Assembly: GCA_002049495.1 (NCBI GenBank)
Contig: LLYS01000008.1
Span: 1 to 64,000, forward strand
Length of the DNA stretch: 64,000 nt
Origin: Epsilonproteobacteria bacterium tcs-49
GTDB lineage: Bacteria; Campylobacterota; Campylobacteria; Campylobacterales; Sulfurovaceae
Reading direction: 5' to 3'
In this document: in pieces, positions 10,047 to 49,506 of the stretch
Position numbering within the stretch: the first letter of the stretch is position 1
How the letters are laid out: each line of letters starts with the position of its first letter
Notes under the pieces: generated by a model
Seen by the model: only the letters and a program-made list of their open reading frames with translations
Databases searched by the model: none
What the model was told of the DNA's origin: nothing
Program-made: the position numbers and the translations under genes

Positions 10047-10060
10047 GGGAGTAAAGATAG

Positions 10061-30052: not shown

Positions 30053-30131
30053 TTTAAATAACATTAATCTAATTTTAAATACAGTATAGATAGTGTAAAA
30101 TTACCCCAAGAAAAAGAAAAAGGTTTGATGT

Positions 30132-33696: not shown

Positions 33697-33722
33697 CTAT
33701 GCTCCTTTAATTGTGAACAACT

Positions 33723-33728
33723 ATTATA
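33723..33728 (-). promoter_or_regulatory. Likely -10 element for the FAD oxidoreductase gene
   Basis: Read on the minus strand, TATAAT lies 27 bases upstream of the ATG at 33696 within the AT-rich divergent gap; AAAGGAGC follows as the ribosome-binding site. No good -35 match was seen. Confidence 0.55.
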
Positions 33729-33762
33729 ATATTATTTTACTTGTAAATTAGTTAAGGTGTGT

Positions 33763-33768
33763 TATAAT
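33763..33768 (+). promoter_or_regulatory. Likely promoter of the long pigment operon
   Basis: TATAAT at 33763-33768 with a TTGTAA -35-like hexamer at 33741-33746 (16-base spacing), about 35 bases before the TTG start of the dehydratase gene. It is the only clear promoter upstream of the thirteen-gene plus-strand run ending at 46018. Confidence 0.6.
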
Positions 33769-33802
33769 ATTTATAAGCAAACAGGCATGGGGATTACTAC
33801 AA

Positions 33803-34123
33803 TTGGAGTCAATATATTCGGTCATCAAACAGCAAAACGATAAGGGTGCGGCGGCGATCACGATAAATCTTGCACAGAGTTCGCACCCCGTATTCCAAGC
33901 CCACTTCCCCGGAAATCCCCTTCTTCCCGGCTATATGCAGATCGATATCCTGGCGGAGATTTTGCAAAAAAGGGTTGTTAGCATCGACAAGGCCAAGTTC
34001 CACCACCCCCTGTTCCCCGACGATCGCGTGACTTTCGAGTTGCTTTTTGAGGCAGAGAAGGTACGCGTAAAAAGTTATAAAGATGAAACCAAATGCAGCG
34101 AGTTCACCCTTGAGTTACGATAG
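33803..34123 (+). CDS. Beta-hydroxyacyl-ACP dehydratase (ApeI-like hot-dog)
   Basis: A 106-residue single hot-dog domain with the catalytic block HPVFQAHFPGNPLLPGYMQ (H34 being the likely catalytic histidine). It closely follows the FabZ/FabA HFPGxPxxPG pattern. It would dehydrate the growing hydroxyacyl chain to introduce the conjugated double bonds, possibly together with the histidine-less partner at 32120. TTG 33803 is the first in-frame start; the only nearby ATG (33787) is in another frame. The 3' end overlaps the glycosyltransferase gene by about 40 bases. Confidence 0.85.
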   Translation: MESIYSVIKQQNDKGAAAITINLAQSSHPVFQAHFPGNPLLPGYMQIDILAEILQKRVVSIDKAKFHHPLFPDDRVTFELLFEAEKVRVKSYKDETKCSEFTLELR

Positions 34124-34823
34124 ACTGGTCGTCGTTCCCACCTACAACAACCCCAAAACCATCGCCCGAGTGGCCCAGGATGTCGTTGCGTGCGGCTATG
34201 AATTGGTCATCGTCGATGACGGCTCAGACAAAAAAGTGGAGGAGTTGATCGCCCGAAACGAGCATATCTCCATCGTCCGGCACGAGCGCAACCGGGGGAA
34301 GGGTGCGGCGATCCTCAGCGGTGCGGCAAAAGCCAAAGAGATGGGGTATGAGTGCTTTGTGAGTATGGACGGCGACGGGCAGCACCTCGCCCGTGAAGTG
34401 TACAAACTCTTCGATTCCAGGAAGGATCCGCGTCAAATCATTATCGGAGCGCGAAACTTCGATATCGACAACGTTCCGGGTAAATCCAAAGTGGGCAGGG
34501 CGTTTCACAACTTTTGGATCCGCGCCAACACCGGCTACGATATCACCGATTCCCTGACGGGGTTTCGTCTCTATCCCGTCTCCATCTTGGAGTTGCAGAC
34601 CCGCAGCCGGAGGTTCAACTTCGAAGTGGAGGTGCTGGTGAAGCACTACTGGAGATACAGCCAGATGCTTGATACCACCATCGAATGTTATTATCCCACC
34701 CCCGAAGAGCGTGTCAGCCATTTTGACAACTACAGGGATACGGCGGCGATTATTATGCTGCATTTGAAACTGTTCGCGATGAAGTGTCTGGCACTCAGAT
34801 CCAGGAGTGCGGCATGGTCGTAA
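34083..34823 (+). CDS. Family 2 glycosyltransferase
   Basis: The 246-residue protein has a GT-A fold of the dolichyl-phosphate-mannose synthase-like kind. It has VVPTYNN near the start, VIVDDGSD (about 42-49), GKGAAILSG (about 72-80) and the metal-binding VSMDGDGQH (about 94-102). There is no long C-terminal membrane region. Similar glycosyltransferases accompany an acyltransferase in aryl polyene and flexirubin clusters, where they may decorate or help anchor the product. ATG 34083 gives a long overlap with the previous gene; TTG 34110 is an alternative start. Confidence 0.85.
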   Translation: MKPNAASSPLSYDRLVVVPTYNNPKTIARVAQDVVACGYELVIVDDGSDKKVEELIARNEHISIVRHERNRGKGAAILSGAAKAKEMGYECFVSMDGDGQHLAREVYKLFDSRKDPRQIIIGARNFDIDNVPGKSKVGRAFHNFWIRANTGYDITDSLTGFRLYPVSILELQTRSRRFNFEVEVLVKHYWRYSQMLDTTIECYYPTPEERVSHFDNYRDTAAIIMLHLKLFAMKCLALRSRSAAWS

Positions 34824-35695
34824 AGCAGCGGGTCAACTCCGTCATCGTCAAAACCCTTTACAGACTTTTTCAACTGCTGGGTTACAAAAGCGTCTATATC
34901 GCCCTTTTCCCGGTGGTGGGGTACTACTTTTTCTTTGCGGGCAACGTCAAAGAGGCGCTTCGGGAGTACTATGCGAGGCTGGGGTTGCGGTGGAGCGAAA
35001 AGCGCTATTTCCGCCACCTTTTTTGCTACGCGGTGACCATGACCGACCGCTTCATCTCCAAAACCGATCCGCAGCTTTATACGATGCAAAATAACAACCG
35101 CGAAGCGATCCTGCGGCAGCTGCGCGAAGGAACGCTGCTGCTTTCGACCCACTACGGCGGCTGGGCGGCGGCGAGTAACTACTTCCGCGAAGACGGGATG
35201 AAGATCAAAGTGGTGATGAGCGAGTCGATGATGGCGCAAGTTCGCGACTTTGAACGGATACTCGATAAAAAAAACAGTAACCAGGTGGAGGTGATCGATA
35301 TCTCAAAGGGGCAGCTTGATACCTCCATCGCTATCGCCAACGCGCTGCTTGAGAAGGAGTCGGTGGCGATGATGGGGGATCGGGTATATAGTGACAAGCA
35401 CCTTTATCCCGCGGAGTTTTTGGGCAAGCGGGCCTATTTTAATAAAAACCCCTTTCAAATCGCATATAAAGCCAAACGCAACATCGTCGTGCTTTTTGTC
35501 CTTTATAAAGGGATCAACCGGTATGAGATGCGTTCACGCGTGATCGAGATGGAGCGTTTCAATGATGAAAAAGAAGCGATCGAAGGGGGGATCGGGGAGT
35601 ATGTACGCTTTTTGACCGAGATCGTCAAAGCCCACCCCGAACAGTGGTTTAATTTTTATAACTTTTGGAGCAGATATGAAGTTGACAATCGATAA
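34814..35695 (+). CDS. Lipid A acyltransferase-like (LPLAT) protein
   Basis: Member of the HtrB/LpxL-type acyltransferase family, which transfers acyl groups from ACP at the inner membrane. It has a hydrophobic N-terminal segment (about 20-42), the THYGGWAAA motif (HxxxxD/E region, about 115-123), MMGDRVY (about 188-194) and a conserved C-terminal WFNFYNFW. ATG 34814 follows AGGAG at ideal spacing; a GTG at 34784 would add ten residues. In flexirubin-type routes an enzyme of this type is a candidate for joining the polyene to its partner or to a lipid anchor. That role is inferred. Confidence 0.85.
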   Translation: MVVKQRVNSVIVKTLYRLFQLLGYKSVYIALFPVVGYYFFFAGNVKEALREYYARLGLRWSEKRYFRHLFCYAVTMTDRFISKTDPQLYTMQNNNREAILRQLREGTLLLSTHYGGWAAASNYFREDGMKIKVVMSESMMAQVRDFERILDKKNSNQVEVIDISKGQLDTSIAIANALLEKESVAMMGDRVYSDKHLYPAEFLGKRAYFNKNPFQIAYKAKRNIVVLFVLYKGINRYEMRSRVIEMERFNDEKEAIEGGIGEYVRFLTEIVKAHPEQWFNFYNFWSRYEVDNR

Positions 35696-37196
35696 TACAC
35701 ATGTGAGTTTTGACCGGGTCCGCGGCGCGACGGACGTGGCCCTTTCCGCGGATAAAAAGTTTTCCGCGGTGATAGAGCGTTCGCACGAGTTTTTAAACGA
35801 ACAGATCAAAGAGGGGAAACCGATCTACGGCATTACGACGGGTTACGGCTCCTCGGGGAAAAACTACGTCAGTTACGAAGACGCCAAAACCCTGCAAAAA
35901 AACCTTTTCCGCTTTCACGGCTGCGGGGTAGGCGAGAATCTGTCCAAAAAAGTGTGCCGCCATATGGTTCTTATCCGTATGATTTCACTCTCCAAAGGCT
36001 GCTCTGCGGTTTCGTTTGAACTGCTGCAGCGTTTTGAACTGCTTTTGCAAAAAGATATCATTCCCGTAATCCCTTCACAGGGGTCGGTGGGGGCCAGCGG
36101 GGATTTGACGCCCCTTTCCTATATCGCCGCCGTGATCGCGGGGGAGCGGGAAGTGTATTATCAGGGTGAAATCCTGCCGGCAAAAGCGGTGTATGAGAAG
36201 CTGGGGATCACCCCCTACGAGTTCAAACCCAAGGAGGCGCTGGCGGTGATGAACGGGACGGCGACCATGAGCGCTATCGCCCTTGATGCGATCGATGCCT
36301 TTGAAGGGGTGCTGGAAACGATGGAATCTTTTGTCGCGGGGATGTATGAGTTGCTTTTAAGCGATGATACGCCCCTGGCGGAGTTTGTGCATCAGTCCAA
36401 ACCCTTCGGCGGACAGATCCAAGCCGCCGCCAACGTAAGAAAAAAGATCGAAGGTTCCGGCTTGACCCACGGCAGGGATGACCGCTACGATAAGTTTTTT
36501 GCCGATAACGATCTCAATATCCAGGATACGTACTCCATCCGCTGCGCCCCGCAGGTGCTGGGAGTGGTCAGAGAGAATTTGGAACTGTCGAAACAGTGGG
36601 TGGAAACGGAGATCAACTCCACCAACGATAACCCCCTGATCGACGGGCAAAACCGTATGATCTATACGTCGGGCAACTTTTACGGCGGCTTTGTCGCCCA
36701 CGCGATGGATACGCTCAAGATCGCCGCGGCGAATTTGGCGGATCTGCTGGATAAGGAGTTTGCGCTGCTGGTGGATCACAAGTTCAACCGCGGTCTGGGG
36801 GAGAATTTGAAACTAAGTCAAGAACCCTACTACCACGGGTTCAAAGCGATGCAGATTACGCTGAGTTCTCTGAGTGCGGACGTGATTAAAAACACCACCG
36901 CCGCTTCGATCCACTCGCGGCCCACGGAATCGCTGAATCAGGATAAGGTGAGCATGGGGACCACCGCGGCAAACGATTTTGCCAAGATGATTCCCGAGCT
37001 GCACAATATGCTCTCCGTTGCGATGATCGGGTTGATGCAGGGGGTCGATATCAGAGGGGTGGAGCAGGTTTCGCCTTTTTTAAAAGAGAGTTATACCAAA
37101 GTCAGGGCTTTGAGCGCACCTTTGTATGAGGATCGCCGTTTGGACGGGGATATCGCGGCGGTTAAAGCGCTGATTATCAAAGGGGAGTTGCGATGA
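35676..37196 (+). CDS. MIO-type aromatic amino acid ammonia-lyase (probable tyrosine ammonia-lyase)
   Basis: Members deaminate histidine, phenylalanine or tyrosine using a self-made MIO group formed from Ala-Ser-Gly, seen here in VGASGDLTPL (A140-S141-G142). The catalytic tyrosine is in IYGITTGYG (Y51). The substrate-selectivity pair aligned to Ser-His of histidine lyases and His-Leu of bacterial tyrosine lyases is Phe80-His81 (LFRFHGCG). Inside an aryl polyene cluster with an aryl-acid ligase, production of 4-coumarate from tyrosine as starter is the most reasonable role. Length (506) is normal. It overlaps the LPLAT gene by 20 bases. Confidence 0.88.
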   Translation: MKLTIDNTHVSFDRVRGATDVALSADKKFSAVIERSHEFLNEQIKEGKPIYGITTGYGSSGKNYVSYEDAKTLQKNLFRFHGCGVGENLSKKVCRHMVLIRMISLSKGCSAVSFELLQRFELLLQKDIIPVIPSQGSVGASGDLTPLSYIAAVIAGEREVYYQGEILPAKAVYEKLGITPYEFKPKEALAVMNGTATMSAIALDAIDAFEGVLETMESFVAGMYELLLSDDTPLAEFVHQSKPFGGQIQAAANVRKKIEGSGLTHGRDDRYDKFFADNDLNIQDTYSIRCAPQVLGVVRENLELSKQWVETEINSTNDNPLIDGQNRMIYTSGNFYGGFVAHAMDTLKIAAANLADLLDKEFALLVDHKFNRGLGENLKLSQEPYYHGFKAMQITLSSLSADVIKNTTAASIHSRPTESLNQDKVSMGTTAANDFAKMIPELHNMLSVAMIGLMQGVDIRGVEQVSPFLKESYTKVRALSAPLYEDRRLDGDIAAVKALIIKGELR

Positions 37197-37888
37197 AAAC
37201 GGTATTGGTAACGGGGGCGACGGGTGCCATAGGCGAAGCGATCGTCAAAGAGTTTGCCGCGATGGGCTATTTCGTGTATATCCACTACAACTCCAATGAA
37301 GCCAAAGCGCAGAACCTGCTCGAAGCTATCGACGGAAACGGGGAAGTTACGGGCTTTAACCTGCGGGACAAGGAGTCTGTGGAAAGCGCGTTGGAAAAGC
37401 TGGAGGTGGATATCCTTGTTAATAACGCGGGCATCATCAAGGATAATCTGTTTTTCTTCATGGAGGATGAGCAGTGGTTTGATGTGATCGATACCAACTT
37501 AAACGGGGTTTATTACGTCACGAAGCAGCTTGCGAAAAAGATGATCGCCAAGAAAGCGGGATCGATCGTCAACGTCACCTCCATCTCCGGACTCGTGGGC
37601 AACGCAGGACAGACCAACTACTCCGCGTCCAAAGGGGGCGTGATCGCTTTTACCAAGGCGCTCAGCGCCGAACTGGCCCGCTACGGTATCCGCGTCAACG
37701 CCGTGGCTCCCGGGGTGATCGAATCGGAGATGACCGAGGGGCTCGATACCAAAGCGATGAAAAAAGCGATCCCCGCCAATCGCCTGGGCAAACCCGAAGA
37801 GGTGGCCGAAGCGGTAGGCTTTTTGGGGGATCGGGGCAGCTACATCAACGGCACGGTGCTTACGGTCAGCGGAGGCATGGTCCGATAA
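37193..37888 (+). CDS. 3-oxoacyl-ACP reductase (FabG-like ketoreductase)
   Basis: A classical short-chain dehydrogenase of 231 residues. It has the NADP-binding loop TGATGAIGEA (about 7-16), NNAG (77-80), and catalytic serine in the VTSISG region with YSASK (Y143, K147). It would reduce the beta-keto group after each condensation on the polyene, supplying the hydroxyacyl substrate of the dehydratases. ATG overlaps the ammonia-lyase stop by four bases. Confidence 0.92.
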   Translation: MKTVLVTGATGAIGEAIVKEFAAMGYFVYIHYNSNEAKAQNLLEAIDGNGEVTGFNLRDKESVESALEKLEVDILVNNAGIIKDNLFFFMEDEQWFDVIDTNLNGVYYVTKQLAKKMIAKKAGSIVNVTSISGLVGNAGQTNYSASKGGVIAFTKALSAELARYGIRVNAVAPGVIESEMTEGLDTKAMKKAIPANRLGKPEEVAEAVGFLGDRGSYINGTVLTVSGGMVR

Positions 37889-37898
37889 AGGAAAAGTG

Positions 37899-38372
37899 AT
37901 GGCAAAGGTGGTGTTGACGCTGCTGCTTGCGGCGCTGAGTCTGTACGGTTTTGAGTTTCAAGAGAAGCGCTATATCAGCGCTTTGGATATGAGCGTGGTC
38001 GCCAAGGGGGAGGCGGATTTTGAAAAGGAGCGCATCATCTTGCGCTACAACGCTCCCCAAAAGCGTACGATCCGCTTAAACGAAACGGGGATGCGGATCG
38101 TGACGGAAAACTCCGTCCAGGAGTTGGACTATGAAAAAAACCCCAAGATGCGCTACGTGTATCTATTGATGCGCGCGGTCTACAGCGGGGATTTCTCCGC
38201 TTTGAAACGCCACTTCAATGAACGCGTGGAGGGTAAGAAACGGATATATCTGCCAAAGCAAGAAAGCGGCGCCTACTTTTCTCAAATTCTTCTCAAGCTG
38301 GAGCAAAAACGCGTGAAACTGCTGCGTATAGAGATGAAAAACGGGGACAGGGTAAGTATTGAAACCCTTTAA
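37899..38372 (+). CDS. LolA-like outer membrane lipoprotein carrier domain protein
   Basis: A 157-residue secreted protein with a short hydrophobic signal region (about 1-18, ending near LYGFEFQEKR). The body resembles the LolA-type half-barrel family that precedes MMPL exporters in aryl polyene clusters. It has no lipobox cysteine, so it is probably a soluble periplasmic carrier. It could ferry the hydrophobic pigment or its lipid-linked form to the outer membrane. ATG 37899 has AAGGA upstream; a GTG three bases earlier is also in frame. Confidence 0.75.
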   Translation: MAKVVLTLLLAALSLYGFEFQEKRYISALDMSVVAKGEADFEKERIILRYNAPQKRTIRLNETGMRIVTENSVQELDYEKNPKMRYVYLLMRAVYSGDFSALKRHFNERVEGKKRIYLPKQESGAYFSQILLKLEQKRVKLLRIEMKNGDRVSIETL

Positions 38373-40461
38373 ACACCTGCCCGTTTTGCTGCTGTTGCTG
38401 GCGGTGGTGCTGCTGTATCTGCCGCTGCAAGAGCGCATGGAACTTTCGACGAAGGTTATCGATATCCTGCCGCAAAGCGAGGCTAAACGCCACTATGAAC
38501 TCCTGCAGCGTTTTGAGGGGACGAAACTGCTTTACGTGGCGGTCAAAGGCGAGGATGAGAGCGCTTTAGGGCGCCTGGAAGAGTTTACGAAAAAGGTGCT
38601 GGAACTCCCCTTCGTCACCAAGCGGCAGGTGCGGCATACGGGGGCGGCTTACCGCCGTTACCTGCGGGAGTATCGATACTACACGACACCTCTGGAACAA
38701 CCCCCGCAAGATTACGGGAAATACTTTGCCAAGGAGCGGGAGCGGTTGATGCAAAACCCCTTTTACTCCGGTCCCGACTCCATGGATCCACTGGGAATTT
38801 TCCCGCAAAAACCCGCCCCCAAGCCGCCTTTTTCTTTGAAAAACGGAGCTCCCTACCTGCAGGGATACGGCTATTTTACCCTTCTGCAGCTGCACCCCGG
38901 GGCCAATGCGGATTACGCAACGATCTATGACGCCGTCCAAAGCCAAGGGGAAACGATAGAGGGGCTGCTGCTGTACAGTCCGCTATTTTATCACGTGGAA
39001 AACGCCAGGGCGATCAAGTCGCAGGTGCATCTGATCATGGCGATCGCGGCCGGCGTTTTGTTTGTACTGTATATTCTGCTTATCCGCAACGTATGGCTTT
39101 TGCTGCAAACGGTAACGGCTTTGGCGACGAGTTCGCTGTTGGCGCTGCTGGTGTTGGGATCGATCTATGGCAAACTCTCTATTTTCGTCGCGGTCTTTGG
39201 CGTCTCCCTTACCGCCGTTGCGATCGATTATATGTTCCACCACTATACCCACGGATTCTACGCCTCCAGGCGCGGCTTTAACCGTGAAGTATTCGCGGGA
39301 TACCTGACGACGGCGGGGAGTTTTTGCATCATCGCGGCGGTTGATTTTACCCTGATTCGTCAGATTGCACTTTTTGCGGCGGTGAGTCTGAGCGTTGCGT
39401 ATCTGCACTTTAGCTTTCTGTTTCCCCGTATGGGGTTTGCTCCGCCAAAGCTCTATGCGGCTTTTGAACCCCGGGGGCGCCGGGGCATCTCCCCGATCTA
39501 TTTTCTGGGGTTTGCGCTGCTGCTTACTCCCGCCTTGCCGCATATCTCTTTCAACACCGATCTGCGTCAGCTTGATTATGAAAACACCCCTTTGCGGCTA
39601 AAAGAGGAGTTTTTCGCCCGGGGGTTGCAGCACCGAAAGCAAACAGCGTTTTTACTGGAGGCTCAAACCCTTGAACAGCTGGTGCAGCGTGCCCGGGCAT
39701 ACGGGGCGAAACCCGGGATCTCACTGCCTTTGGCTACGGTGTTGGACCGGCAGCGGTACACAAAGCGCAAAGCGCGCCTGAAGGGGATGGATTTTAAAAC
39801 CATAAAGGCAAACATGTTGCGCGCGGCGCAAGCGCAGGGTTTTGCGCCGCAGCGTTTCGCAAAAGCCTACGAAGCACGGCGGCTTTTCCCTCCGCCCTAT
39901 GAGCTTACTCTTACGCGGTTGCAAAAGCTTGGCTTTGATGTGATACAATACGGTAATCGATTTTATACCCGGGGCAGCGCAACGGTCGATTATGCGGCGT
40001 TGCAAGGGTTGCGGGGGGTGACTCCCGTTTCAGCGGGTCGGCTTTTTGCCCGCGCCTTTGAGGGGGTGTATGAACAGCTTTTTCTCTACGGGGCGGCGTC
40101 GGCGCTTTTTGTCTTTGCGATGCTTTGGCTCAGCTGCAAACGGCGGATCGCGGAAGCTTTGGGGTACCTGCTGCCCCCGCTTGGGGTGATAGCGCTTTAC
40201 GGGGCGCTGTTTGAATTGAACGTTTTGATGGTTTTTATGGGCTTTGTGATCCTGGCCGTGGGGATCGATTATTCGATCTATATGGCGCACCGAAGGGATA
40301 GGGCGACGATGCAGGCGGTGGGGTATTCGCTGATTAGTACCTTTGCCGGGTTCGGGGTTTTGGTTTTTAGCTCCGTAAACGCCCTGTACTCCATAGGGAT
40401 AATAGCGGTGCTGGGCATAGGGACGATAGCGGTGACGGTAAGTTTGAGCAAGAAAGGATAG
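38359..40461 (+). CDS. MMPL/RND-family exporter of the pigment cluster
   Basis: A 700-residue integral membrane protein with two repeats. Each is a lone hydrophobic helix (about 6-24 and 380-396), a large periplasmic domain, and a bundle of about five membrane segments (about 220-355 and 575-697). The second bundle includes the GIDYSIYMAH motif, and the first has AIDYMFHHY, both with the family's intramembrane Asp. Such exporters are standard in aryl polyene clusters. The TTG start overlaps the LolA-like gene by 14 bases, consistent with coupled production of a carrier-exporter pair. Confidence 0.88.
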   Translation: MKPFKHLPVLLLLLAVVLLYLPLQERMELSTKVIDILPQSEAKRHYELLQRFEGTKLLYVAVKGEDESALGRLEEFTKKVLELPFVTKRQVRHTGAAYRRYLREYRYYTTPLEQPPQDYGKYFAKERERLMQNPFYSGPDSMDPLGIFPQKPAPKPPFSLKNGAPYLQGYGYFTLLQLHPGANADYATIYDAVQSQGETIEGLLLYSPLFYHVENARAIKSQVHLIMAIAAGVLFVLYILLIRNVWLLLQTVTALATSSLLALLVLGSIYGKLSIFVAVFGVSLTAVAIDYMFHHYTHGFYASRRGFNREVFAGYLTTAGSFCIIAAVDFTLIRQIALFAAVSLSVAYLHFSFLFPRMGFAPPKLYAAFEPRGRRGISPIYFLGFALLLTPALPHISFNTDLRQLDYENTPLRLKEEFFARGLQHRKQTAFLLEAQTLEQLVQRARAYGAKPGISLPLATVLDRQRYTKRKARLKGMDFKTIKANMLRAAQAQGFAPQRFAKAYEARRLFPPPYELTLTRLQKLGFDVIQYGNRFYTRGSATVDYAALQGLRGVTPVSAGRLFARAFEGVYEQLFLYGAASALFVFAMLWLSCKRRIAEALGYLLPPLGVIALYGALFELNVLMVFMGFVILAVGIDYSIYMAHRRDRATMQAVGYSLISTFAGFGVLVFSSVNALYSIGIIAVLGIGTIAVTVSLSKKG

Positions 40462-40463
40462 AA

Positions 40464-41675
40464 GTGCGGATACGGTATATTCACGATAGCGGCAAGGAGG
40501 AGATCTTTCCGATCGATAAAGATGCTATGTGCAACCCGGCGCTGGAGGGGAAACTGTTTTACCTCGACGCCGAATCCAAGCTGCAAAGCGCGCTGGATTT
40601 TTTTACGGCATATTTCAGCCGGGCCAAAAGCGTTTTGCTCGATACCTCCAATAAGCAGACCCTGCAAAAGGTTCGCGAACTCGGGGTCGCTTCCTACCGC
40701 GGCGGGGAAAAAAGCAAAAGCTTCTTAGAGGAGATACCGTTTCGTACTATGCTCTTTACCTCCGGCAGTACCGGGGAAGCGACGGGGGCGTTTAAAAGTG
40801 CCCAAAACCTCGAAAGCGAACTGCACAGTTTGCAAAAGCTCGTGCAAGCGCACCGTATCGAACAGGTGGTCGTCACCGTTCCCTTCGTCCATATCTACGG
40901 GATACTGGCGGGGTTGCTGCTACCGCATTTTCTTGATCTGGATATCGTGTTTAAAGAGCACTTCCTCCCCGCGGATCTGGCGGCACTGCAGGATCGTCCC
41001 ACATTGGTGGTTACGACACCGCTTTATATCAAATCCCTGCAAAAACTGGCGTTGGAACAGCGCTTTGAACACAGTTGCTTTCTTAGCTCCACCGCTCCGC
41101 TTGATTCCAAAATCGCCGGGGCTTTTGTCCGGCATTACGATTGTGCATTGATCCAGATATTTGGTTCCACGGAAACGGGAGGGATCGCCTATAAAGAGCG
41201 CGACGACTCCCTTTGGCGTCCGCTGGAGAGGGTGGAGATCACGCGAAATGCAAAGGGGCTATTGCGGGTGCGTTCGCCCTTTGTTTCCCAAACGCTGCTA
41301 GACGGAGAGTTGCGGCAAACGGGAGGAGAGGTACAAACTTTTGATTATATCCGAATGGAAAAGGAGGGGTTTGAACTGATCGGGCGCGATTCCAAAATCG
41401 TCAAGATCGCGGGCAAGCGCTACTCGACGCAGCAGATGGAGGATATCCTGGAAGCTATCGAGGGGATCGAACGCGCCCTTGTGCAGGTGGAGTATCTCAA
41501 AGAATCCCTGCGCGGCGAAAAGCTGCAGATCTATCTGCAAAGCCCGAGGGAGTGGAAAACCAAACAGATACGTGATATTTTGCAAAAGAATTTGAGCAAT
41601 ATCCACTTTACGATCGAACTGCACCGCGTAGACGAGATCCCCGTCAGCCAGATGGGGAAAAAGCTTGCGCTGTAG
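40464..41675 (+). CDS. AMP-forming acyl/aryl ligase (ANL family)
   Basis: Probably activates the aryl acid starter (4-coumarate or relative) with ATP and loads it on a carrier protein. Motifs seen are the P-loop LFTSGSTGEATG (about 97-108, with Ala-Thr in place of the usual Pro-Lys) and FGSTETGG (about 233-240). The hinge and lid are GRDSKIVKIAGKR, and the lysine near the end is in QMGKKLAL. At 403 residues it is shorter than typical 500-residue ligases, mostly at the N-terminus, as in other aryl polyene ligases. GTG start with GGA upstream. Confidence 0.86.
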   Translation: MRIRYIHDSGKEEIFPIDKDAMCNPALEGKLFYLDAESKLQSALDFFTAYFSRAKSVLLDTSNKQTLQKVRELGVASYRGGEKSKSFLEEIPFRTMLFTSGSTGEATGAFKSAQNLESELHSLQKLVQAHRIEQVVVTVPFVHIYGILAGLLLPHFLDLDIVFKEHFLPADLAALQDRPTLVVTTPLYIKSLQKLALEQRFEHSCFLSSTAPLDSKIAGAFVRHYDCALIQIFGSTETGGIAYKERDDSLWRPLERVEITRNAKGLLRVRSPFVSQTLLDGELRQTGGEVQTFDYIRMEKEGFELIGRDSKIVKIAGKRYSTQQMEDILEAIEGIERALVQVEYLKESLRGEKLQIYLQSPREWKTKQIRDILQKNLSNIHFTIELHRVDEIPVSQMGKKLAL

Positions 41676-41684
41676 GAGGCTTTG

Positions 41685-42590
41685 ATGTCCATAACGATTC
41701 ATGCTCTTTCGCACAGTTACGGGGCGGATACGCCGGTGCTTCAGGGGATCGACCTTAGGATAAAAAAGGGTTCGCTTTTTGGATTGCTAGGTCCCAACGG
41801 AGCCGGGAAAACTACGCTGGTATCGATTTTGAATACCCTGGTGAAGAAGGATTCGGGACGGGTTGAAGTGTGCGGGTATGACCTGGACAGCCAGGTGCAA
41901 AAGGTCAAAGCCTGCAGCGGGTACGTACCCCAGGGCTACGCCTTTTATCCCCAGCTCAACGCCCGGGAAAACCTGGAGTTTTTTGCCGCGCTGCACGGTT
42001 TGCAAGGGGCCCGGATGCGTCGCCGCATCGAGTACGCCATCGAGGCGACGGCACTGGAGCAAAAGGCGCTGCAGAGGGCATATACCTACTCGGGGGGCTT
42101 GAAGCGGCGGCTCAATATCGCTATCGGGTTACTCAACGATCCCCGGGTACTGTATCTGGATGAACCCACCGTGGGGATCGATCCCCAGTCGCGCCACTAT
42201 ATTTTGGAAGTGATCAAAAAGATCAACCGCCGCAAGCAAACGACGATCGTGTATACCTCCCACTATATGGAAGAGATCGAGTACCTTTGTGACGAAGTTG
42301 CGATTTTAGACGGCGGGAAAGTACTTTTGCAAAGCTCGGTTTCGGAGTTGACCAAGGCGGGCAGGGCCGCGACGCTTACGCTTTCGGGGCAGCCTGCGCA
42401 AGCTTGTGAAGGGGTGCGCTATGAAAAGCGGCGGGCTTATGTGGACCTTTCGCGGGGGTACGATACGCTGCGCAGGTTTTTGAATCTGCTGGAAAAGGAG
42501 AGGATCGAAGTGCTGGATATGCAAAGCGGTCGGGGCGATCTGGAGCAGTTTTTCCTGCAAGTAACCAGTGAACGTTTAAGGGATGGATGA
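41685..42590 (+). CDS. ABC transporter ATPase subunit
   Basis: Has Walker [10 protein letters not shown] (about 36-44), Q-loop, the signature [10 protein letters not shown] (about 130-139, SGG with Leu-Lys), Walker [13 protein letters not shown] (about 152-163) and H-loop YTSHYMEE. The C-terminal extension of about 80 residues is typical of ABC-2 drug/antigen exporters. An AGGAGG site lies just before ATG 41685. It is coupled to the permease gene by ATGA overlap and together they form a second export system in the cluster. Confidence 0.92.
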
Positions 42591-43759
42591 TGCTGGGATA
42601 TATCGTGAAAAAAGAGTTTACGCTGATCTTTCGGGATATCCACGCGCTTTTGGTCCTGTTTGTGATGCCCACGCTGTTTATTCTCATCATGTCCCTGGCG
42701 CTGCACGACAGTTATTCGCAAAAGATGGAGGTGAAGTTTCAAGTGGCTTTGCTTGAAAACGGGGAGGAGCAGCCTCTGGCATATACCATGCTTATGCAAA
42801 AGCTGCGTCAAAGCGGTACTTTTCACTTCCAAAGCGTCAAAAGCGAAAGCTCCCTCAAGGAGCTGCTGTATCAAAAAGGGTATGATTTCGCCGTTGCCTT
42901 TCCCGCGGATTTCAAACAGCGTTTGCAAAACGACAGGGAGAGTTTCCGGGCACGGTTTTTTGCCAGAAGCGACGTCAGCCCCCGCCAGATGGCGCTGTTA
43001 AAAGGGTTATACAGCACCAACGTTTCCAAGGTACTGCTTGAACAGGTCCTGGGATCGCTGGGGGTTAGTGCCGCGGAAAACGATATCGGCGACCGCATCG
43101 AAAGCCGCTACGTGTACAAACAAAACGACAAGGGTGCAAAACCCACCTCCGTGCAGCAAAGCGTCCCCGCGTGGCTCGTGTTTTCCATGTTTTTTATTTT
43201 GATTCCCATCTCCAACACCTTTATCAACGAAAAGCGGTTGGGTACCATCGAGCGTATACGCAGTATCGATGTTTCCCTCTGGCCCATCCTTTTTGGCAAA
43301 TTCCTGCCCTATTTCGTAATCAACCAGATTCAGGTGGTATTGATGATCGCGGTGGGGTATTTTCTGGTACCGCTGCTTGGCGGCGACCGCCTGCAAATAG
43401 CGGGGAATCCGCTGCATATCGCTTTGATGGCGGCGGCCGTGAGCTTTGCCTCCATCTGTTTCGCTTTGCTGATCGCCAACATCAGCAAAACCACCGAGGA
43501 AGCCACCTCCATAGGGGGCGTATCCAACATCATCCTCGCCGCGCTGGGCGGGATCATGGTACCCAAGTTCGTCATGCCCGAATTTATGCAGGAGGTGACG
43601 GAATACTCCCCTATGGCGTGGGCGCTGCAGGGGTTTTTGGAACTTTTCACCAGAGCGGGCGGCTTGTCAGATATCGCCGCCGATGCGGGAAAACTGCTTC
43701 TCTTTGGTATAATTAGCTTACTGTTATCGTTTTATATATTGCAAAAAGGGAGCCGATGA
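42587..43759 (+). CDS. ABC-2 type transporter permease
   Basis: A 390-residue membrane protein with one N-terminal helix (about 22-43). A large extracytoplasmic domain (about 45-185) follows, then five or six helices toward the C-terminus (about 190-385), as in YhhJ/YbhS-type exporters. The VFSMFFILIPISNTFI stretch opens the second membrane block. It overlaps the ATPase start and is followed by an acyl carrier protein gene overlapping by four bases, so transport and chain-building genes share one transcript. Confidence 0.88.
   Translation: MMLGYIVKKEFTLIFRDIHALLVLFVMPTLFILIMSLALHDSYSQKMEVKFQVALLENGEEQPLAYTMLMQKLRQSGTFHFQSVKSESSLKELLYQKGYDFAVAFPADFKQRLQNDRESFRARFFARSDVSPRQMALLKGLYSTNVSKVLLEQVLGSLGVSAAENDIGDRIESRYVYKQNDKGAKPTSVQQSVPAWLVFSMFFILIPISNTFINEKRLGTIERIRSIDVSLWPILFGKFLPYFVINQIQVVLMIAVGYFLVPLLGGDRLQIAGNPLHIALMAAAVSFASICFALLIANISKTTEEATSIGGVSNIILAALGGIMVPKFVMPEFMQEVTEYSPMAWALQGFLELFTRAGGLSDIAADAGKLLLFGIISLLLSFYILQKGSR
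43708..43713 (+). promoter_or_regulatory. Possible internal promoter before the second ACP gene
   Basis: A perfect TATAAT lies inside the last codons of the ABC permease gene, 43 bases before the ACP ATG, in a locally AT-rich patch. A convincing -35 is not seen. It could allow separate expression of the second ACP-KS-KS-like set, but could be chance within coding sequence. Confidence 0.3.
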
Positions 43760-44019
43760 AAGGGTCAGAAGATAGTGCGCTTAAACAGCGCTTGAAAGAG
43801 TTGATCGTTACGGAGTGTGAAAAGGAGATAGCCCCGGAAAGTATCGCCGATGAAGCGGTACTTTTTGAAGATGAGGCGTTGGAGTTGGATTCTATGGATG
43901 CGCTGCAGATATCCATGGGGTTGCAAAAGCATTTCGGTATCGAAATCAGCGATAGTAAAAAGTTGCGTAAAGTGATGGTTTCGATCAATACCCTGGCCGA
44001 TCATATCCAGCCGGAGTAA
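43756..44019 (+). CDS. Acyl carrier protein (pigment cluster, second)
   Basis: An 87-residue acidic protein with the phosphopantetheine serine in LELDSMDALQI (about residue 45). It differs from the first ACP at 30132 in a longer N-terminus and MDAL instead of VDSI. Aryl polyene clusters usually carry two ACPs, one for starter loading or elongation and the other for a separate priming KS; the adjacent second KS fits that. It overlaps the permease stop by four bases. Confidence 0.9.
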   Translation: MKGSEDSALKQRLKELIVTECEKEIAPESIADEAVLFEDEALELDSMDALQISMGLQKHFGIEISDSKKLRKVMVSINTLADHIQPE

Positions 44020-44021
44020 CC

Positions 44022-45176
44022 GTGCACGCTTGCAGCTATATCACCGGAAGTTCGCTGCTTTGTTCCCTGGGTGAGGGGAAGCGCGAAGCGGTGCAAAAAG
44101 CCCGAAGCGTCATAGAAAACGGCTATGAGCGATACGTAAAACAACTGTTTTCACAAAAAGCGTTTTACGCGCTGCCGCGGCGCTACGGGACACGATCGCA
44201 AAAGTTTGAGCATACCCTTGAAACGGTCGTCAAAAGTGCCCTTGAGGAAGCCGGAATCACCCCGCGCGAACAGGAGGAGCTGCATATTTTTATCGGATCG
44301 ACCTCTATGAATATGGGGATGAACGAGGAGTGCAACGCTTCGTGGTTACACAAAAGCGGGGGAAGGGAAGTTTTTAATATCGGCTACGGTTACGTGGGGG
44401 AGTATCTACAGCGTTTTACGGGTTCGCGCCATACGCCGCTTTCGTTTTTAACCGCCTGTACCTCCAGTACCAACGCTTTGATCTATGCGGCACGCATGAT
44501 CGAAAAAAAGCAGATAAAAAAAGCCCTCGTGGTGGGAGTGGAGCTGTATAACGATACCACTTACAACGGCTTTTCCTCCTTGATGCTGCTGTCGCAAAAG
44601 GGAGTGTATAGACCCTTTGACGCGGACAGCGACGGAATCATCCTCGGAGAGGGGTGTTCGGCGATGGTTTTGGAAGAGCGTCCAAAAAGCGACGGCGACT
44701 TTGCCTATCTGGGAGCGGCGATGCACAGCGATACCTACTCCGAAACCACCTCCAACCCCGACGGAATCAGTATCTTTGAAACGATGCGCGACGCGTTGGA
44801 GGATGCGCAGCTGGGTCTGGAGCAGATCGACTGTATCAAAGCCCACGCTACGGGGAGCGAAAACAACAACCTTTCCGAAGCCAGAGGGATCGACGCCCTG
44901 TTCGCGCGGCACGCTACCCGGGTTCCCGTTACGGCGGTCAAACCCTTTATCGGGCATACGCTCGGAGCTTCGGGCAGCAATGAGATCGTATTTATGCTCG
45001 AGTGCGTCAAGGCGGGTTTTCTGCCGCCGACGCTGGGTTTTGAAAAGGGGATCGAGGGGATCGGTTTTACCCCGATGCAATCTGCCGCGGCGATTGAGAG
45101 GGGGAGTTTTTTATTTAACTTCGTAGGCTTTGGCGGCAGCAACAGCGCCGTCGTGTTGAGCAACAGGGAGCGCTGA
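44022..45176 (+). CDS. Beta-ketoacyl synthase (pigment cluster, second KS)
   Basis: A 384-residue condensing enzyme with cysteine in FLTACTSSTNAL (C146), histidine in KAHATGSENN (H275) and histidine in FIGHTLGASG (H312). It diverges from the first KS, for example NAHGTGT is KAHATGSE, and so probably has a different substrate such as chain initiation. GTG start 44022 is preceded by GGAG. It is translationally coupled to the following KS-like gene (TGATG). Confidence 0.9.
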   Translation: MHACSYITGSSLLCSLGEGKREAVQKARSVIENGYERYVKQLFSQKAFYALPRRYGTRSQKFEHTLETVVKSALEEAGITPREQEELHIFIGSTSMNMGMNEECNASWLHKSGGREVFNIGYGYVGEYLQRFTGSRHTPLSFLTACTSSTNALIYAARMIEKKQIKKALVVGVELYNDTTYNGFSSLMLLSQKGVYRPFDADSDGIILGEGCSAMVLEERPKSDGDFAYLGAAMHSDTYSETTSNPDGISIFETMRDALEDAQLGLEQIDCIKAHATGSENNNLSEARGIDALFARHATRVPVTAVKPFIGHTLGASGSNEIVFMLECVKAGFLPPTLGFEKGIEGIGFTPMQSAAAIERGSFLFNFVGFGGSNSAVVLSNRER

Positions 45177-46018
45177 TGTATATCCACAAGACCCACGTCC
45201 TTTTGCAGCACTGCCAACCGGTGAAACACTATAAAGATATCCTCAAAAGGATCAAGAAAACCAATCTGCGCCGCTCGAGTAAATACAACATCATCGCCGT
45301 TTTGGGAGCACTGCAGTGTATGCGGGGCGTGGAGATGAAAAACGCTTTTTGGGGGATCTATGTCAGCTCCGCATACAGCTGTATCGAAAACGTCGCCGAA
45401 GTGGTCACCAGGATCAACAGCGAACCCGAAGCGCCGGTTATGCCCTTTGACTTTTTAAACGTCAACAGCAACAACGTCAGCTTTTACGTTGCCCAGGCGC
45501 TGGAAGCGACCGGCAAAAACATGGTGGTGACCGCGGAGGATCTGGGTTTTGAAAAGGCGCTGCAAACGGCGGACTTTGACCTGTGTTACGGGTTCGTGGA
45601 CAGGGCTTTGCTAGGCGGCGTAGATACCTCCTTGCAAAATTTCGACGGTGCGGCGGATTATGTTCCTTTGCCCGACAATACCCCGAGTATGGACGGTAGC
45701 TGCTGGATCTATGCAAATAGGGAACCCGAGGGGGCGCTGGCCCGGATAGAAAAGATCGAAGAGTTCGGCACCATTGAGGCGCTGATTCCGTATCTGCGCA
45801 ACCTGGGGGAGCGTGAAGTGGCGCTTAATCTTCTCGCCGCGCAAAACAGCCGTTTGCGCGAAGCGTTTCCCCGGGCCTCTTTCGATCTGAGACAGGGGTA
45901 TTACGGATCGCAGGGGGCGTTGAGTCTGATCACCCTCGCAAAGGGGAAACGTCCCGCCTGTTACGTCGCCCAAAGCACTCAGGGAGCCTTTTTCGCCATA
46001 ACGCTACAGCCCCTTTAA
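45176..46018 (+). CDS. Degenerate ketosynthase-like protein
   Basis: The 280 residues can be laid on the N-terminal KS fold. GIYVSSAYSCIENVAEV (about 60-76), FDFLNVNSNNVSFYVAQAL (about 91-109) and VVTAEDLGFEKAL (about 117-129) follow the spacing of KS strands and the nucleophile elbow. At the elbow the cysteine is replaced, leaving TAEDLG. No second-half histidine motifs are visible. It is therefore likely a non-condensing partner of the preceding KS, like a chain length factor. I do not recognise a characterised close relative. The 3' end overlaps the convergent BtrH-like gene by 15 bases. Confidence 0.65.
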   Translation: MYIHKTHVLLQHCQPVKHYKDILKRIKKTNLRRSSKYNIIAVLGALQCMRGVEMKNAFWGIYVSSAYSCIENVAEVVTRINSEPEAPVMPFDFLNVNSNNVSFYVAQALEATGKNMVVTAEDLGFEKALQTADFDLCYGFVDRALLGGVDTSLQNFDGAADYVPLPDNTPSMDGSCWIYANREPEGALARIEKIEEFGTIEALIPYLRNLGEREVALNLLAAQNSRLREAFPRASFDLRQGYYGSQGALSLITLAKGKRPACYVAQSTQGAFFAITLQPL

Positions 46019-46993
46019 CAGGCTGAAAGCCTCCCTCTCCGTCTGCGCGGCTTCACGCAGTTTTGCAGCGATCGCCTCCGCGTCGAAATCGTCGGGGTTC
46101 TTTGCCCCCTGAACGCACAGAAGGGCAAATTCACGAAGCGTATTGCCTGAACGGGTCATCAATTCAGAAGCCTGCTGCAGCGGTTTTTGGGGCAGGCCGT
46201 AGCCGATCGCTTCTTGCAAGAACGCCGCATAGAGGAAGCGGAAACCGCCGCCGCCCGTTCCGATCTCCTCCTGCATCCGCACGATATGGGTCAAAAAGTT
46301 TGTCAGGTAGCGCCGATCCCCGCAGCTTTGCAACGAGGCGATCTTTTTTGCCAGGGTAAACATCCCCTTGACTCCGCCGTAGGGAAAGGGGATCAGCATC
46401 ACCTTCGCGTTTTTTCTGATCGCTTTTTTCAAAGCCGCCGCCATATCGATTGTTTGATCTATCTCGTCGATATAGTATAAAAACCCTTTGGGGGCGAAAA
46501 CCCCCTTGGCAAAGCGCGCTATCGCCAAATCTTTGGGATCACACGTTACCCCCTCTTCAAATACGGGGTCGCTGATTTTGTATCTGTTGCCCTCTTTCCC
46601 GTATACGATGAGGTTGTGCGCGTTGAAATGAAAGCGCATGTCGGGGGGAAAGTAGGGGAGGTAAAAAACGGAGGTTTGCAGCCCCACCAGCTTGCCCTCC
46701 TCCAGCAGCCCGTCCAGGTCGCGCTGGGCGTCGAAAGCGTTTTTGTAGCGCTTGGTCACGATGGTAAGGTTTAACACCTTGGCGATCTTATTGATGATGT
46801 TTTTAGGCAGTTGCCGGTAAGCGATCAGGGGCATATTGTTCAGCTTGATCACGGGCAGGTAGACAAAAGAGAGCGAGGCGGTCAAGCCAAAAACCATCGG
46901 TTCGCTCAGTTGCAGCCCCTTTTGGGAAACGAGCGTAGAAACCACCCCGCTTTCACAATGGGCAAACTGGGTGTGTTCAAACTCCCGGGGCAT
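46004..46993 (-). CDS. BtrH-like acyl-transferase candidate (BtrH N-terminal plus C-terminal domain)
   Basis: BtrH of butirosin synthesis moves an acyl group from a carrier protein to an amine through a cysteine. This 329-residue protein has the same N-terminal signature, FAHCESGVVSTL (H12-C13 onward), HFNAHNLIVYGK (about 121-132) with a likely catalytic histidine, and ISDPVFEEG (about 139-147). A helical C-terminal domain follows (about 185-320). Proteins of this type are found in Bacteroidetes flexirubin clusters. With DarA and DarB upstream in the same operon it is a candidate for esterifying the polyene to the resorcinol. The role is inferred. Confidence 0.72.
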   Translation of the reverse strand: MPREFEHTQFAHCESGVVSTLVSQKGLQLSEPMVFGLTASLSFVYLPVIKLNNMPLIAYRQLPKNIINKIAKVLNLTIVTKRYKNAFDAQRDLDGLLEEGKLVGLQTSVFYLPYFPPDMRFHFNAHNLIVYGKEGNRYKISDPVFEEGVTCDPKDLAIARFAKGVFAPKGFLYYIDEIDQTIDMAAALKKAIRKNAKVMLIPFPYGGVKGMFTLAKKIASLQSCGDRRYLTNFLTHIVRMQEEIGTGGGGFRFLYAAFLQEAIGYGLPQKPLQQASELMTRSGNTLREFALLCVQGAKNPDDFDAEAIAAKLREAAQTEREAFSLLKGL

Positions 46994-47384
46994 CGTTACA
47001 TCCTTTTAACTGCGCGACGGTGATATTAAATGCGTCGGCGTACTTTTGCAGGGTTTTGTCTTTGAGTTTGACAAAGACGCGGTATTTGCAGTGGCGCTTG
47101 ATTTGAAATTGGAACAAGCCGGTAACGCTGGCAAGCGTGGGCAGGTCCATGCGGTTTTTATACATAAAATACGCAACCGCCGACCCCTCTTTGTCCGCTA
47201 TGCGTCGCAGCGCTTCGGATTCGAGCTTCTCATACTCCTGCACCGCGACCTTGGTGGCAAACTCTTCGACGCTGCTGCCGTAGTTGTGCCGGGTGAAGCG
47301 CCCGTCTTCGCTGGGGGCGTACATCACCTTACGGATACCGCCGAGGGTCGCATTCTCCTCCTGGGGGATCTGAACTTTCGCCAT
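46977..47384 (-). CDS. Small hypothetical protein with an HTH-like C-terminus, DAR operon
   Basis: A 135-residue protein between darB and the BtrH-like gene. The C-terminal half (about 78-130) reads like a helix-turn-helix or XRE-type bundle (DLPTLASVTGLFQFQIKRH, then LQKYADAFNITVAQLKG). The N-terminal half is charged and unassigned. It overlaps the BtrH-like gene by 17 bases and its ATG overlaps the darB stop, so it is coupled with both. It may be a regulator of the pigment operon; that is a guess from the fold-like pattern. Confidence 0.6.
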   Translation of the reverse strand: MAKVQIPQEENATLGGIRKVMYAPSEDGRFTRHNYGSSVEEFATKVAVQEYEKLESEALRRIADKEGSAVAYFMYKNRMDLPTLASVTGLFQFQIKRHCKYRVFVKLKDKTLQKYADAFNITVAQLKGCNDAPGV

Positions 47385-48529
47385 CACACCACCTCAAGGC
47401 ACATAAACGCCGTGGAGAAGCGTCCGCTTTCGGGGATATAGCACAGCAGCTTCTGCCCCTTTTCCAAGCGGTTGCTTTTAAACAGCTCCTCAAGCATGAT
47501 ATAGATCGATGCCGCTCCGGTATTTCCTTTGGTGGTTAAGTTGGTAAACCACTTTTCGTAAGGGATCTCCAACCCCCCTTTTTTCATCCCCTCATACACC
47601 TTGTCCCGGAAAAAGGCGGAGGAGTAGTGGGGCAGGAAGTAGTCAAACTCCTGGGCATCGAGGCCGCGCTTTTGCTTAATATGAGCGATCGGTTTTTCGA
47701 CGGTGTAGTCGATGATGTTGTCATTGAGCAGTTTCACGTCCTGGCTGATGCTAAAGATCGATTTTCGCATCTGCTGCTCCTGGGTCATAAAGCGCCACGG
47801 GGTGATGGAGTGGTCTTCATGCTTTTCGCAGCCGCTGTACATGCACGTGGGCATACTTCCGGCGTAGGAGAGCAGGTCGATCCATTCGATCTTCAAAGAG
47901 ACCCCGTCGGCTCGGGGGCGGTTTTGCAGCCGCATCGCTCCGGCCCCGTCGGAGAGCATCCATCGCAGAAAATCCTTCTCAAACGCGAGGGAGGGATTTT
48001 TTTCCAACTCTTCGAGTTTACGTTCGATCTCCTTTTCGAAATTTTTTGCGTGCAGCATGGGCGAAACCACTTCCGAACCCGTAGCCACGCCGTTTTCCAA
48101 CTCTTGGGATTTGATGCCGTAGTAGAGGTATTTCAATGCGTTGATACCGCTGAGACAGATTCCCGAAGCGCTCAGGGTTTCAATGGGCCCCAGTCCCAGT
48201 TCGCCCTGAACCATCAGCGTATGGTTGGGCATCAGTTGATCGGGGGTGGTCGTCCCGCATGAAAGCGCCTGGATCTGTGCGGTGGAAAACTCTGTCGTTT
48301 CAAGCTTTTTGACCGCTTCGGCGGTAAGCTGCGCATTGGTGTGGGAAATGGCCCCGTTATCGGGGTTGAGCACGTAGTGGCGGCTTTTGATCCCGTTGCT
48401 TTTTAAAACGATCTTTTTGGCGCGGGAGGGTTTGTCGTTGATATAGCCCAGGCACTCCTCTATGGAATCGTTATCGACGGGGGCACCCGGTAAAGCTACC
48501 GCGATATCCGTAATATAAACGTTACTCAT
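47384..48529 (-). CDS. darB: DarB-type KASIII ketosynthase (dialkylresorcinol synthesis)
   Basis: DarB condenses a beta-ketoacyl thioester with a second acyl intermediate to a cyclohexanedione, precursor of 2,5-dialkylresorcinols. The 381 residues have a thiolase/KASIII fold with catalytic cysteine in LSASGICLSG (C125), histidine in FLPHYSS (H301) and asparagine in TTKGNTGAAS (N336). The insertion around 160-190 (charged helix) separates it from FabH. The neighbouring darA-type gene overlaps by eight bases, reproducing the darAB pair of known clusters. Confidence 0.85.
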   Translation of the reverse strand: MSNVYITDIAVALPGAPVDNDSIEECLGYINDKPSRAKKIVLKSNGIKSRHYVLNPDNGAISHTNAQLTAEAVKKLETTEFSTAQIQALSCGTTTPDQLMPNHTLMVQGELGLGPIETLSASGICLSGINALKYLYYGIKSQELENGVATGSEVVSPMLHAKNFEKEIERKLEELEKNPSLAFEKDFLRWMLSDGAGAMRLQNRPRADGVSLKIEWIDLLSYAGSMPTCMYSGCEKHEDHSITPWRFMTQEQQMRKSIFSISQDVKLLNDNIIDYTVEKPIAHIKQKRGLDAQEFDYFLPHYSSAFFRDKVYEGMKKGGLEIPYEKWFTNLTTKGNTGAASIYIMLEELFKSNRLEKGQKLLCYIPESGRFSTAFMCLEVV

Positions 48530-49472
48530 CCAAAAACTCCTTCACTCGCTCCCTGCCGCTTCCCGAGGGTTGTTCATACTGTTCTTTCTTGCGCCGGAAC
48601 TGCTCCTTGTTCAGGGTACGTAAAACCATCTGCACGACCATATTGATCGGTACCACCGTTACGATGATCAGCAGTAAAAACAGAACATAGAGCATCACGA
48701 CCGGTTTTCTTTTCATTTCTCCGCGTTTTCCCAGTTTGCGGATCAGTTTTCCCCAGATGCGGAAACTTTTTGTCGCGATCTGCTCGCTTTTGATCAATCG
48801 CACATCCACTTCGACAGCACCGAGGCCGCGGCAAAGGGGCTCATCCGGTTTCGCACCGCTTTTCAAACCCCGCTTGATCGCTTCGCCGAAGCGCCGGGCG
48901 TTTTTGATCTCCCGGGGACTCACCCCCGCAGGCGGGAAGATACCCCACAAACGGTCCTTCTTGCCCGTCATCATCCAGCGCGGCGTCGTGATAAAAGTCG
49001 CAAGGGAGCTGCCCTGATCGACCAAAACGATGTTGTCGATCAGTTTCGCTCCGAGCTTTTCAAGCATCCCTTTTACCTTCTCCTGGGCCATGATCCACAT
49101 ATTGCGGCACCCGATAACGGTGATGACCGGCGTGTTTTTCAACCGTTGCTTCGCAAACTCGCTTTTTAAAAAAGCGGTTGCGGGCAGGGAGGGGGAGAGA
49201 AACCACACCTGGTAGGTAAAGATCACCAGATCGTACTCTATCCCCTCATCTTTGATCGGTTCGATTGCACAGGGGTCGAGATATACCGATTCGGGAAAGG
49301 TATCCATAAAGGTTATAAAATTCCACGGAAAGGGAAAGGGTTCTACCGGTTTGATCACCTTTTCGTGTATCTGTACCGTCTCCTCACCGTAAAGCGGCTC
49401 GAGAATAGAATCTTTGATCGCATAGAGTTGTCCGCTTTGGGAGTAGGAAACTACTAAAATATGTTTTGTCAA
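48522..49472 (-). CDS. darA: DarA-type dialkylresorcinol aromatase
   Basis: DarA aromatises the product of DarB to a dialkylresorcinol. The N-terminus (ILVVSYSQSGQL) is a flavodoxin-like FMN-binding loop, followed by a flavodoxin-fold core (about 1-180). A C-terminal hydrophobic segment (about 260-285) could anchor it in the membrane. Length (316) and order before darB match annotated dialkylresorcinol condensing enzymes. TTG 49472 is chosen as start because it directly precedes the flavodoxin strand with AGGTG upstream. The longer GTG start at 49505 would lie in the promoter region (TAAAAT near 49507-49512). Confidence 0.8.
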   Translation of the reverse strand: MTKHILVVSYSQSGQLYAIKDSILEPLYGEETVQIHEKVIKPVEPFPFPWNFITFMDTFPESVYLDPCAIEPIKDEGIEYDLVIFTYQVWFLSPSLPATAFLKSEFAKQRLKNTPVITVIGCRNMWIMAQEKVKGMLEKLGAKLIDNIVLVDQGSSLATFITTPRWMMTGKKDRLWGIFPPAGVSPREIKNARRFGEAIKRGLKSGAKPDEPLCRGLGAVEVDVRLIKSEQIATKSFRIWGKLIRKLGKRGEMKRKPVVMLYVLFLLLIIVTVVPINMVVQMVLRTLNKEQFRRKKEQYEQPSGSGRERVKEFLDE

Positions 49473-49506
49473 AATGGCACCTAGATAATAATTATTAACT
49501 AACACT

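Follow-up and report, generated by a model that had tools for sequence, protein, structure and literature searches.

A BtrH-related protein encoded with darA and darB as a candidate for the polyene-resorcinol joining step of flexirubin-type pigments

Results

The darABGH operon

The genome of Epsilonproteobacteria bacterium tcs-49 (assembly GCA_002049495.1) carries genes for a dialkylresorcinol (DAR) directly beside genes for an aryl polyene, and this article concerns one gene, darH, that may encode the enzyme joining the two products. The window analysed consists of the 64,000 nucleotides at positions 1-64,000 of the forward strand of contig LLYS01000008.1. Within it, four genes with overlapping ends follow one another on the minus strand, between 49472 and 46004. 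The first, darA (48522..49472), encodes a DarA-type dialkylresorcinol synthesis protein, and the second, darB (47384..48529), a ketosynthase-cyclase of the StlD/DarB family. They are followed by darG (46977..47384), named after an NCBIfam family and equivalent to darD of Azoarcus, and by darH (46004..46993), encoding a BtrH-related papain-like acyltransferase, proposed here to form the polyene-resorcinol ester. The overlaps amount to 8 nt between darA and darB, 1-4 nt between darB and darG, and 17 nt between darG and darH. The start of darA is taken to be the TTG at 49472, as inferred by alignment with homologues, while the longest open reading frame begins at 49505.

DarB scores 595 bits against NF005293 (StlD/DarB; cut-off 450), and the product of the third gene 135 bits against NF053536, "DarG family dialkylresorcinol biosynthesis protein" (cut-off 70). 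No model of Pfam or NCBIfam matched DarA, which is homologous to the DarA adjoining DarB in 73 of 80 DarH loci and also to that of two darA-darB-acyl carrier protein (ACP) clusters, L216 and L217. The 80 loci were found by scanning 84,980 species genomes and are spread over Campylobacterota, Desulfobacterota, and the alpha-, beta-, and gammaproteobacteria. In 70 of them the co-linear order darA-darB-darG-darH is shared, far beyond what chance would provide. A scan for promoters and terminators gave no more sites than were present in shuffled sequence.

A first-pass annotation, made from the sequence alone, had described four overlapping minus-strand genes at 46004-49472, the third a helix-turn-helix (HTH) protein and the fourth BtrH-like. 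The arrangement is as described, and the identity of the fourth gene is borne out below. As for the HTH label, DarG resembles Cro/C1-type HTH proteins only weakly (PF13443, E = 0.0076, under the cut-off), and its NCBIfam match is to the DarG family.

Family, fold, and active site of DarH

DarH matches the equivalog model NF053550, "BtrH-related acyltransferase DarH", at 458.9 bits (cut-off 300) over all model positions (1-325 of 325), so the curators of that model already call the family an acyltransferase. Two Pfam domains, BtrH_N (PF14399, 156.8 bits; gathering threshold 29.7) and DUF4872 (PF16169, 166.8 bits; threshold 28), together account for the protein from end to end. The predicted picture is that of a two-domain papain-like transferase, BtrH_N followed by the helical DUF4872. 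An AlphaFold2 model built from 56 homologues is confident (predicted local distance difference test, pLDDT, 91.7; predicted template modelling score, pTM, 0.89) and replaces an earlier, poor one built from 4 sequences (pLDDT 66.8).

In the model, Cys13 (46955..46957, minus strand), the predicted nucleophile, is the first residue of the core helix (residues 13-24). His126 (46616..46618, minus strand), the predicted catalytic base, begins the strand 126-134, and Asp142 (46568..46570, minus strand), the predicted third residue of the triad, follows the strand 137-141. As modelled, the three are placed as in papain-like enzymes, and none of them varies among the 84 homologues; loss of Cys13, which the first-pass annotation had named as an observation that would count against its proposal, was therefore seen in none of them. 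That annotation had pointed to an N-terminal His-Cys pair. The pair is real, His12-Cys13 being kept in all 84 homologues, but catalysis more probably relies on Cys13-His126-Asp142, like C11/H128/D144 of CtaG. The spacing from His to Asp is 16 residues in DarH, equal to that between H128 and D144 of CtaG.

Relatives of solved structure emerge by fold only. Searching PDB by sequence, with DarH alone or with a profile of 56 sequences, brought up no relative and nothing but chance matches, for example to coiled coils. In contrast, Foldseek matched the DarH model over its full length, the helical C-terminal half included, to AziU3, CtaG, and CcbD (E values from 2e-10 to 8e-6, query TM 0.57-0.69). 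E was 2e-10 for AziU3, 2e-9 for CtaG (TM 0.66/0.70), and 2e-7 for CcbD, including its complex with a peptidyl carrier protein. A C39-like peptidase, 3erv, was a weaker and partial match (query TM 0.36). The confident model thus places DarH among the carrier-protein-dependent papain-like acyl transferases.

Occurrence of DarH across genomes

DarB lies inside the locus in 73 of the 80 DarH loci, and in 68 the pair of ATP-binding cassette (ABC) transporter genes, an ACP, and a ketosynthase (KS) are also nearby. Of the seven loci with no DarB in view, five are in genomes that have DarB elsewhere; in the genome records of the other two (L076 and L081), nothing scored above the DarB cut-off. Among the Desulfobacterota (L009, L019, L046), darG-darH sit with ACP and KS genes, and darA-darB are inverted nearby or placed elsewhere in the genome, which shows darG and darH to be a separable pair.

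An even draw of 348 Pseudomonadota genomes, leaving out the genome picked through DarH, contained eight with DarB over the cut-off, and these are exactly the eight with DarH: 8/8 genomes with DarB have DarH, versus 0/340 without DarB (Fisher p 2e-16). The marker of aryl-polyene clusters, PF13723, is present in 71/349 Pseudomonadota genomes. BtrH-like genes in polyene clusters without darAB were the other observation named in the first-pass annotation as contrary to its proposal, and DarH was found in none of the 62 Pseudomonadota genomes that have PF13723 but not DarB. Five Pseudomonadota genomes with NF005293 matches of 300-364 bits, considered as possible cases of DarB without DarH, were set aside, as their loci have no DarA. 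Three genomes yielded four BtrH-like matches that fall short of the DarH cut-off; these are not in dar clusters and belong to a different subfamily.

Within the Pseudomonadaceae, 54 of 398 genomes have DarB, and 51 of the 54 have DarH. In addition to the 51, DarH is found in a genome whose darB is broken up over two frames that overlap (L219, genome G890, 8918-10076) and in which darA, darG, darH, and the other genes remain, the split representing either a frameshift or an assembly error. Of the three genomes with DarB and without DarH, two have a darA-darB-ACP locus, in one case with an AraC-type protein clearly close by, and the third has a darA-darB-methyltransferase locus. At these three loci there is no darG, darH, ABC pair, or dar KS. 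The layout of the two darAB-ACP loci is presumably that of the darABC cluster for free resorcinol in Pseudomonas. In each of the three genomes the polyene marker lies at some other place, and so the presence of both pathways in one genome does not suffice; DarH marks the joined module. At L218 (genome G889, 8610-11821), a Pseudomonadaceae locus that lacks darG, darH, and the ABC and KS genes, darA and darB are followed by an O-methyltransferase-like gene, possibly a variant making methylated resorcinol.

Relatedness among the sampled genomes makes the counts less than fully independent. DarH was found almost only where resorcinol and polyene genes form one module.

On viral contigs, no relatives of DarH or DarB were found. 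BtrH-like matches on plasmids are distant (about 25-28% identity), and Acinetobacter plasmids widely carry a BtrH_N/DUF4872 protein with about 25% identity to DarH. Ketosynthases on Bacteroides and Prevotella plasmids score 490-492 against the DarB model, above its cut-off, with a regulator nearby and no DarA. At L221 (14008-15150) and L222 (14989-16125), such a stand-alone plasmid ketosynthase of the DarB family comes directly after the gene of an HTH/TetR-type regulator, with no DarA nearby. A match to the DarB model alone is therefore no proof of resorcinol synthesis.

The surrounding pigment cluster

On the plus strand, genes from 41682 to 46018 converge on darH. They encode an ABC transporter ATPase (41682..42590; PF00005), counterpart of Azoarcus darF and present in 74/80 DarH loci; an ABC-2 type permease (42587..43759; PF12698), counterpart of darI (73/80); a DarC-like ACP (43756..44019; PF00550; 72/80), a possible acyl-carrier partner of DarH; and a KS (44022..45176; PF00109/PF02801), counterpart of darJ. 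Last comes, in the position of darK, a protein like a KS or a chain-length factor (CLF) (45176..46018), with a weak match to PRK09185 and recognised by sequence in 26/80 loci, whose gene overlaps the end of darH by 15 nt. Cys146 and His312 of the dar-associated KS are kept, and 17 of its 66 homologues have Gln in place of His275. This KS/KS-like pair (44022-46018), which has an ACP of its own, and the KS pair at 30370-32123 that belongs to the polyene genes are two different sets. The module of DarH also takes in DarG, the ABC transporter, and the extra ACP/KS pair, whose roles can only be guessed at: partner or regulator for DarG, export for the transporter, acyl supply or hand-over for the ACP and KS proteins.

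The aryl-polyene (flexirubin-type) gene cluster itself occupies 28979..40461, on the plus strand apart from a halogenase-like gene. It encodes a FlxJ-like methyltransferase, a KS, a KS-like protein or CLF, the halogenase-like flavoprotein, dehydratases, a glycosyltransferase, an acyltransferase, an aromatic ammonia-lyase, a ketoreductase, a LolA-like protein, and a large putative exporter. The halogenase-like gene (32473-33696), on the minus strand, could serve to chlorinate the aryl ring; chlorinated flexirubins are known. Just downstream, beside the dar ABC genes, is the one AMP-ligase-like gene found in the pigment cluster (40464..41675, plus strand; PF00501, with a match below the cut-off to TIGR02372, 4-coumarate--CoA ligase-like), expected to activate the aryl starter acid. 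The region as a whole is a flexirubin-type hybrid cluster, with its closest homologues in Campylobacterota.

Discussion

Flexirubin-type pigments are a classical chemotaxonomic marker, and the first-pass annotation had considered the joining of their polyene and resorcinol halves not to be firmly assigned. That judgment appears to stand: the literature searched, outside of which lay most subscription journals, yielded no experimental assignment of an enzyme to the ester-forming step, only the proposal made in 2014 for Chitinophaga pinensis that a ligase-like protein, FlxW, carries it out (PMC3992019). The BtrH-like gene itself is not newly recognised. It is the acyltransferase DarH of NCBIfam, and the dar cluster of Azoarcus sp. 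BH72 was described as containing darA, darB, darD (conserved hypothetical), darE ("BtrH-like peptidase"), ABC genes, an ACP, a KS, and darK (PMC3949708). The pigment of Azoarcus was inferred by mass spectrometry to be an ester of a polyene with a DAR, and free DAR was not detectable (PMC3949708). What is new here are the co-occurrence counts, the exceptions with DarB and without DarH, the invariant triad, and the confident model of the fold.

The operon likely makes a dialkylresorcinol that DarH caps, through Cys13, with the polyene of the adjoining aryl-polyene cluster. DarA and DarB would make the dialkylresorcinol, and the neighbouring cluster the polyene. Cys13, in a triad with His126 and Asp142, would receive the finished polyenoyl chain from an ACP, whether that of the polyene cluster or the DarC-like one. 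DarH would then transfer the chain, in ping-pong fashion, to a phenolic hydroxyl of the resorcinol, producing a flexirubin-type ester. BtrH_N proteins are relatives of the papain-like enzymes of families C39 and C70, and BtrH is an ACP:aminoglycoside acyltransferase (PMC10318531). CcbD works through a carrier-protein-dependent ping-pong mechanism with a Cys triad and tolerates a broad range of acyl groups, fatty acyl groups among them (PMC12945683). The darAB genes of C. pinensis suffice for production of dialkylresorcinol in E. coli (PMC3992019; likewise for DarAB, PMC3949708), so the resorcinol half can be made without DarH, and since DarH occurs almost only where resorcinol and polyene genes form one module, it is the best candidate for the joining step. 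The best account of a carrier-dependent acyl transferase confined to joined clusters is that it hands the polyenoyl group to the resorcinol.

The main rival assigns the bond to the dar KS pair (44022-46018), which with its ACP would form the ester in the manner of a C-O-bond-forming KS, leaving DarH only to load the acyl group from one carrier to another. Ester-forming enzymes of the KS type are known, for example NonJ and NonK of nonactin. The KS, KS-like protein, and ACP belong to the same conserved module (68/80 loci), and the Gln found in place of the catalytic His in some dar KS homologues would allow for unusual KS chemistry. Loading by DarH has its precedent in CtaG, proposed to move a hydroxybenzoyl group (HBA) between carriers (PMC6772006). 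Most of the KS homologues, however, retain Cys-His-His, which fits ordinary chain elongation, and the fold of DarH is already that expected of a transferase from carrier to acceptor, making this alternative unlikely. Less probable again is that activation of the polyene acid and its coupling to the resorcinol are both the work of an AMP-dependent ligase of the FlxW type, DarH doing something else. A ligase gene does sit beside the dar ABC genes, and the route is the one put forward for C. pinensis, but the one gene of this kind found in the cluster would already be required for activating the aryl starter acid, the part that FlxY plays, and DarH would be left with no clear role despite its strict co-inheritance.

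Might DarH act earlier, supplying or loading acyl groups for the synthesis of the resorcinol by DarA and DarB? The overlap of darH in one operon with darA and darB would make sense on this account, but the sufficiency of DarAB in E. coli and the absence of darH from clusters resembling those for free DAR render it improbable, a shade more so than the ligase. Finally, the papain-like fold with Cys-His-Asp and the match to 3erv bring to mind a cysteine peptidase, or a self-protection or maturation factor, in keeping with the Azoarcus annotation. This is very improbable, as the matches that extend over all of DarH are to AziU3, CtaG, and CcbD, and the peptidase matches only in part.

Several considerations nonetheless weigh against DarH as the ester-forming enzyme. 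In BtrH, CcbD, and CtaG, the characterised relatives whose acceptors are known, the group acylated is an amine, and a phenol would be new to the fold. The literature searched offered neither biochemistry nor a mutant of DarH, and the FlxW proposal stands as a published alternative. Co-occurrence alone cannot single DarH out, because it is inherited together with DarG, the ABC pair, the ACP, and the KS. The co-occurrence sample, moreover, leaves out the Bacteroidota, the classical flexirubin producers, and in a control from that phylum, Bacteroides ihuae, a DarB-type match and the polyene marker were found but no DarH, DarG, or BtrH_N. That match may be a stand-alone ketosynthase, like those on Bacteroides and Prevotella plasmids, and since the plasmid enzymes pass the DarB cut-off, B. 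ihuae is not a clear exception.

On balance, the ester-forming role ascribed to the BtrH-like protein by the first-pass annotation fits the fold, the triad, and the co-occurrence, and makes DarH a well-supported candidate by inference. It seems somewhat likely that DarH is, throughout the Campylobacterota, Desulfobacterota, and Pseudomonadota, a flexirubin-type ester synthase with a papain fold that acylates the oxygen of a phenol. The question of the joining step is narrowed to one gene and one cysteine. If the proposal is true, then DarH would extend a small family of free-standing, carrier-protein-dependent condensation enzymes, whose characterised members form amides, to the O-acylation of phenols, and it could serve as a coupling tool.

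Comparison with known systems

The dar cluster of Azoarcus sp. BH72, responsible for arcuflavin (darA-B-D-E-F-I-C-J-K; PMC3949708), has the same set of genes as the cluster described here. The arrangements differ: in this Campylobacterota genome, darABGH converge with the ABC, ACP, and KS genes and lie directly beside the polyene cluster. Also, a PHD/PilT pair is found inside the Azoarcus cluster, and none was seen in the cluster here.

CtaG, which acts in closthioamide biosynthesis (PDB 9quz and entries related to it), shares about 14% identity with DarH and matches its fold over the full length, with Cys-His-Asp at similar positions and spacing; mutants C11A, H128A, and D144N of CtaG are represented in PDB. 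Its donor is an aryl acyl group bound to a carrier protein, and its proposed acceptor is a carrier-bound amine, as opposed to the phenol proposed for DarH. CcbD and LmbD, of lincosamide biosynthesis (PDB 7yn1, 7yn2, 9dkr, 9dks), also match over the full length, at 12% identity, but unlike DarH they have a Cys-His-Glu triad and produce an amide with an amino sugar. BtrH, of butirosin biosynthesis, has in common with DarH the N-terminal PF14399 family and catalyzes ACP-dependent acyl transfer; its acceptor is the amine of an aminoglycoside, whereas DarH constitutes an equivalog family of its own within dar clusters.

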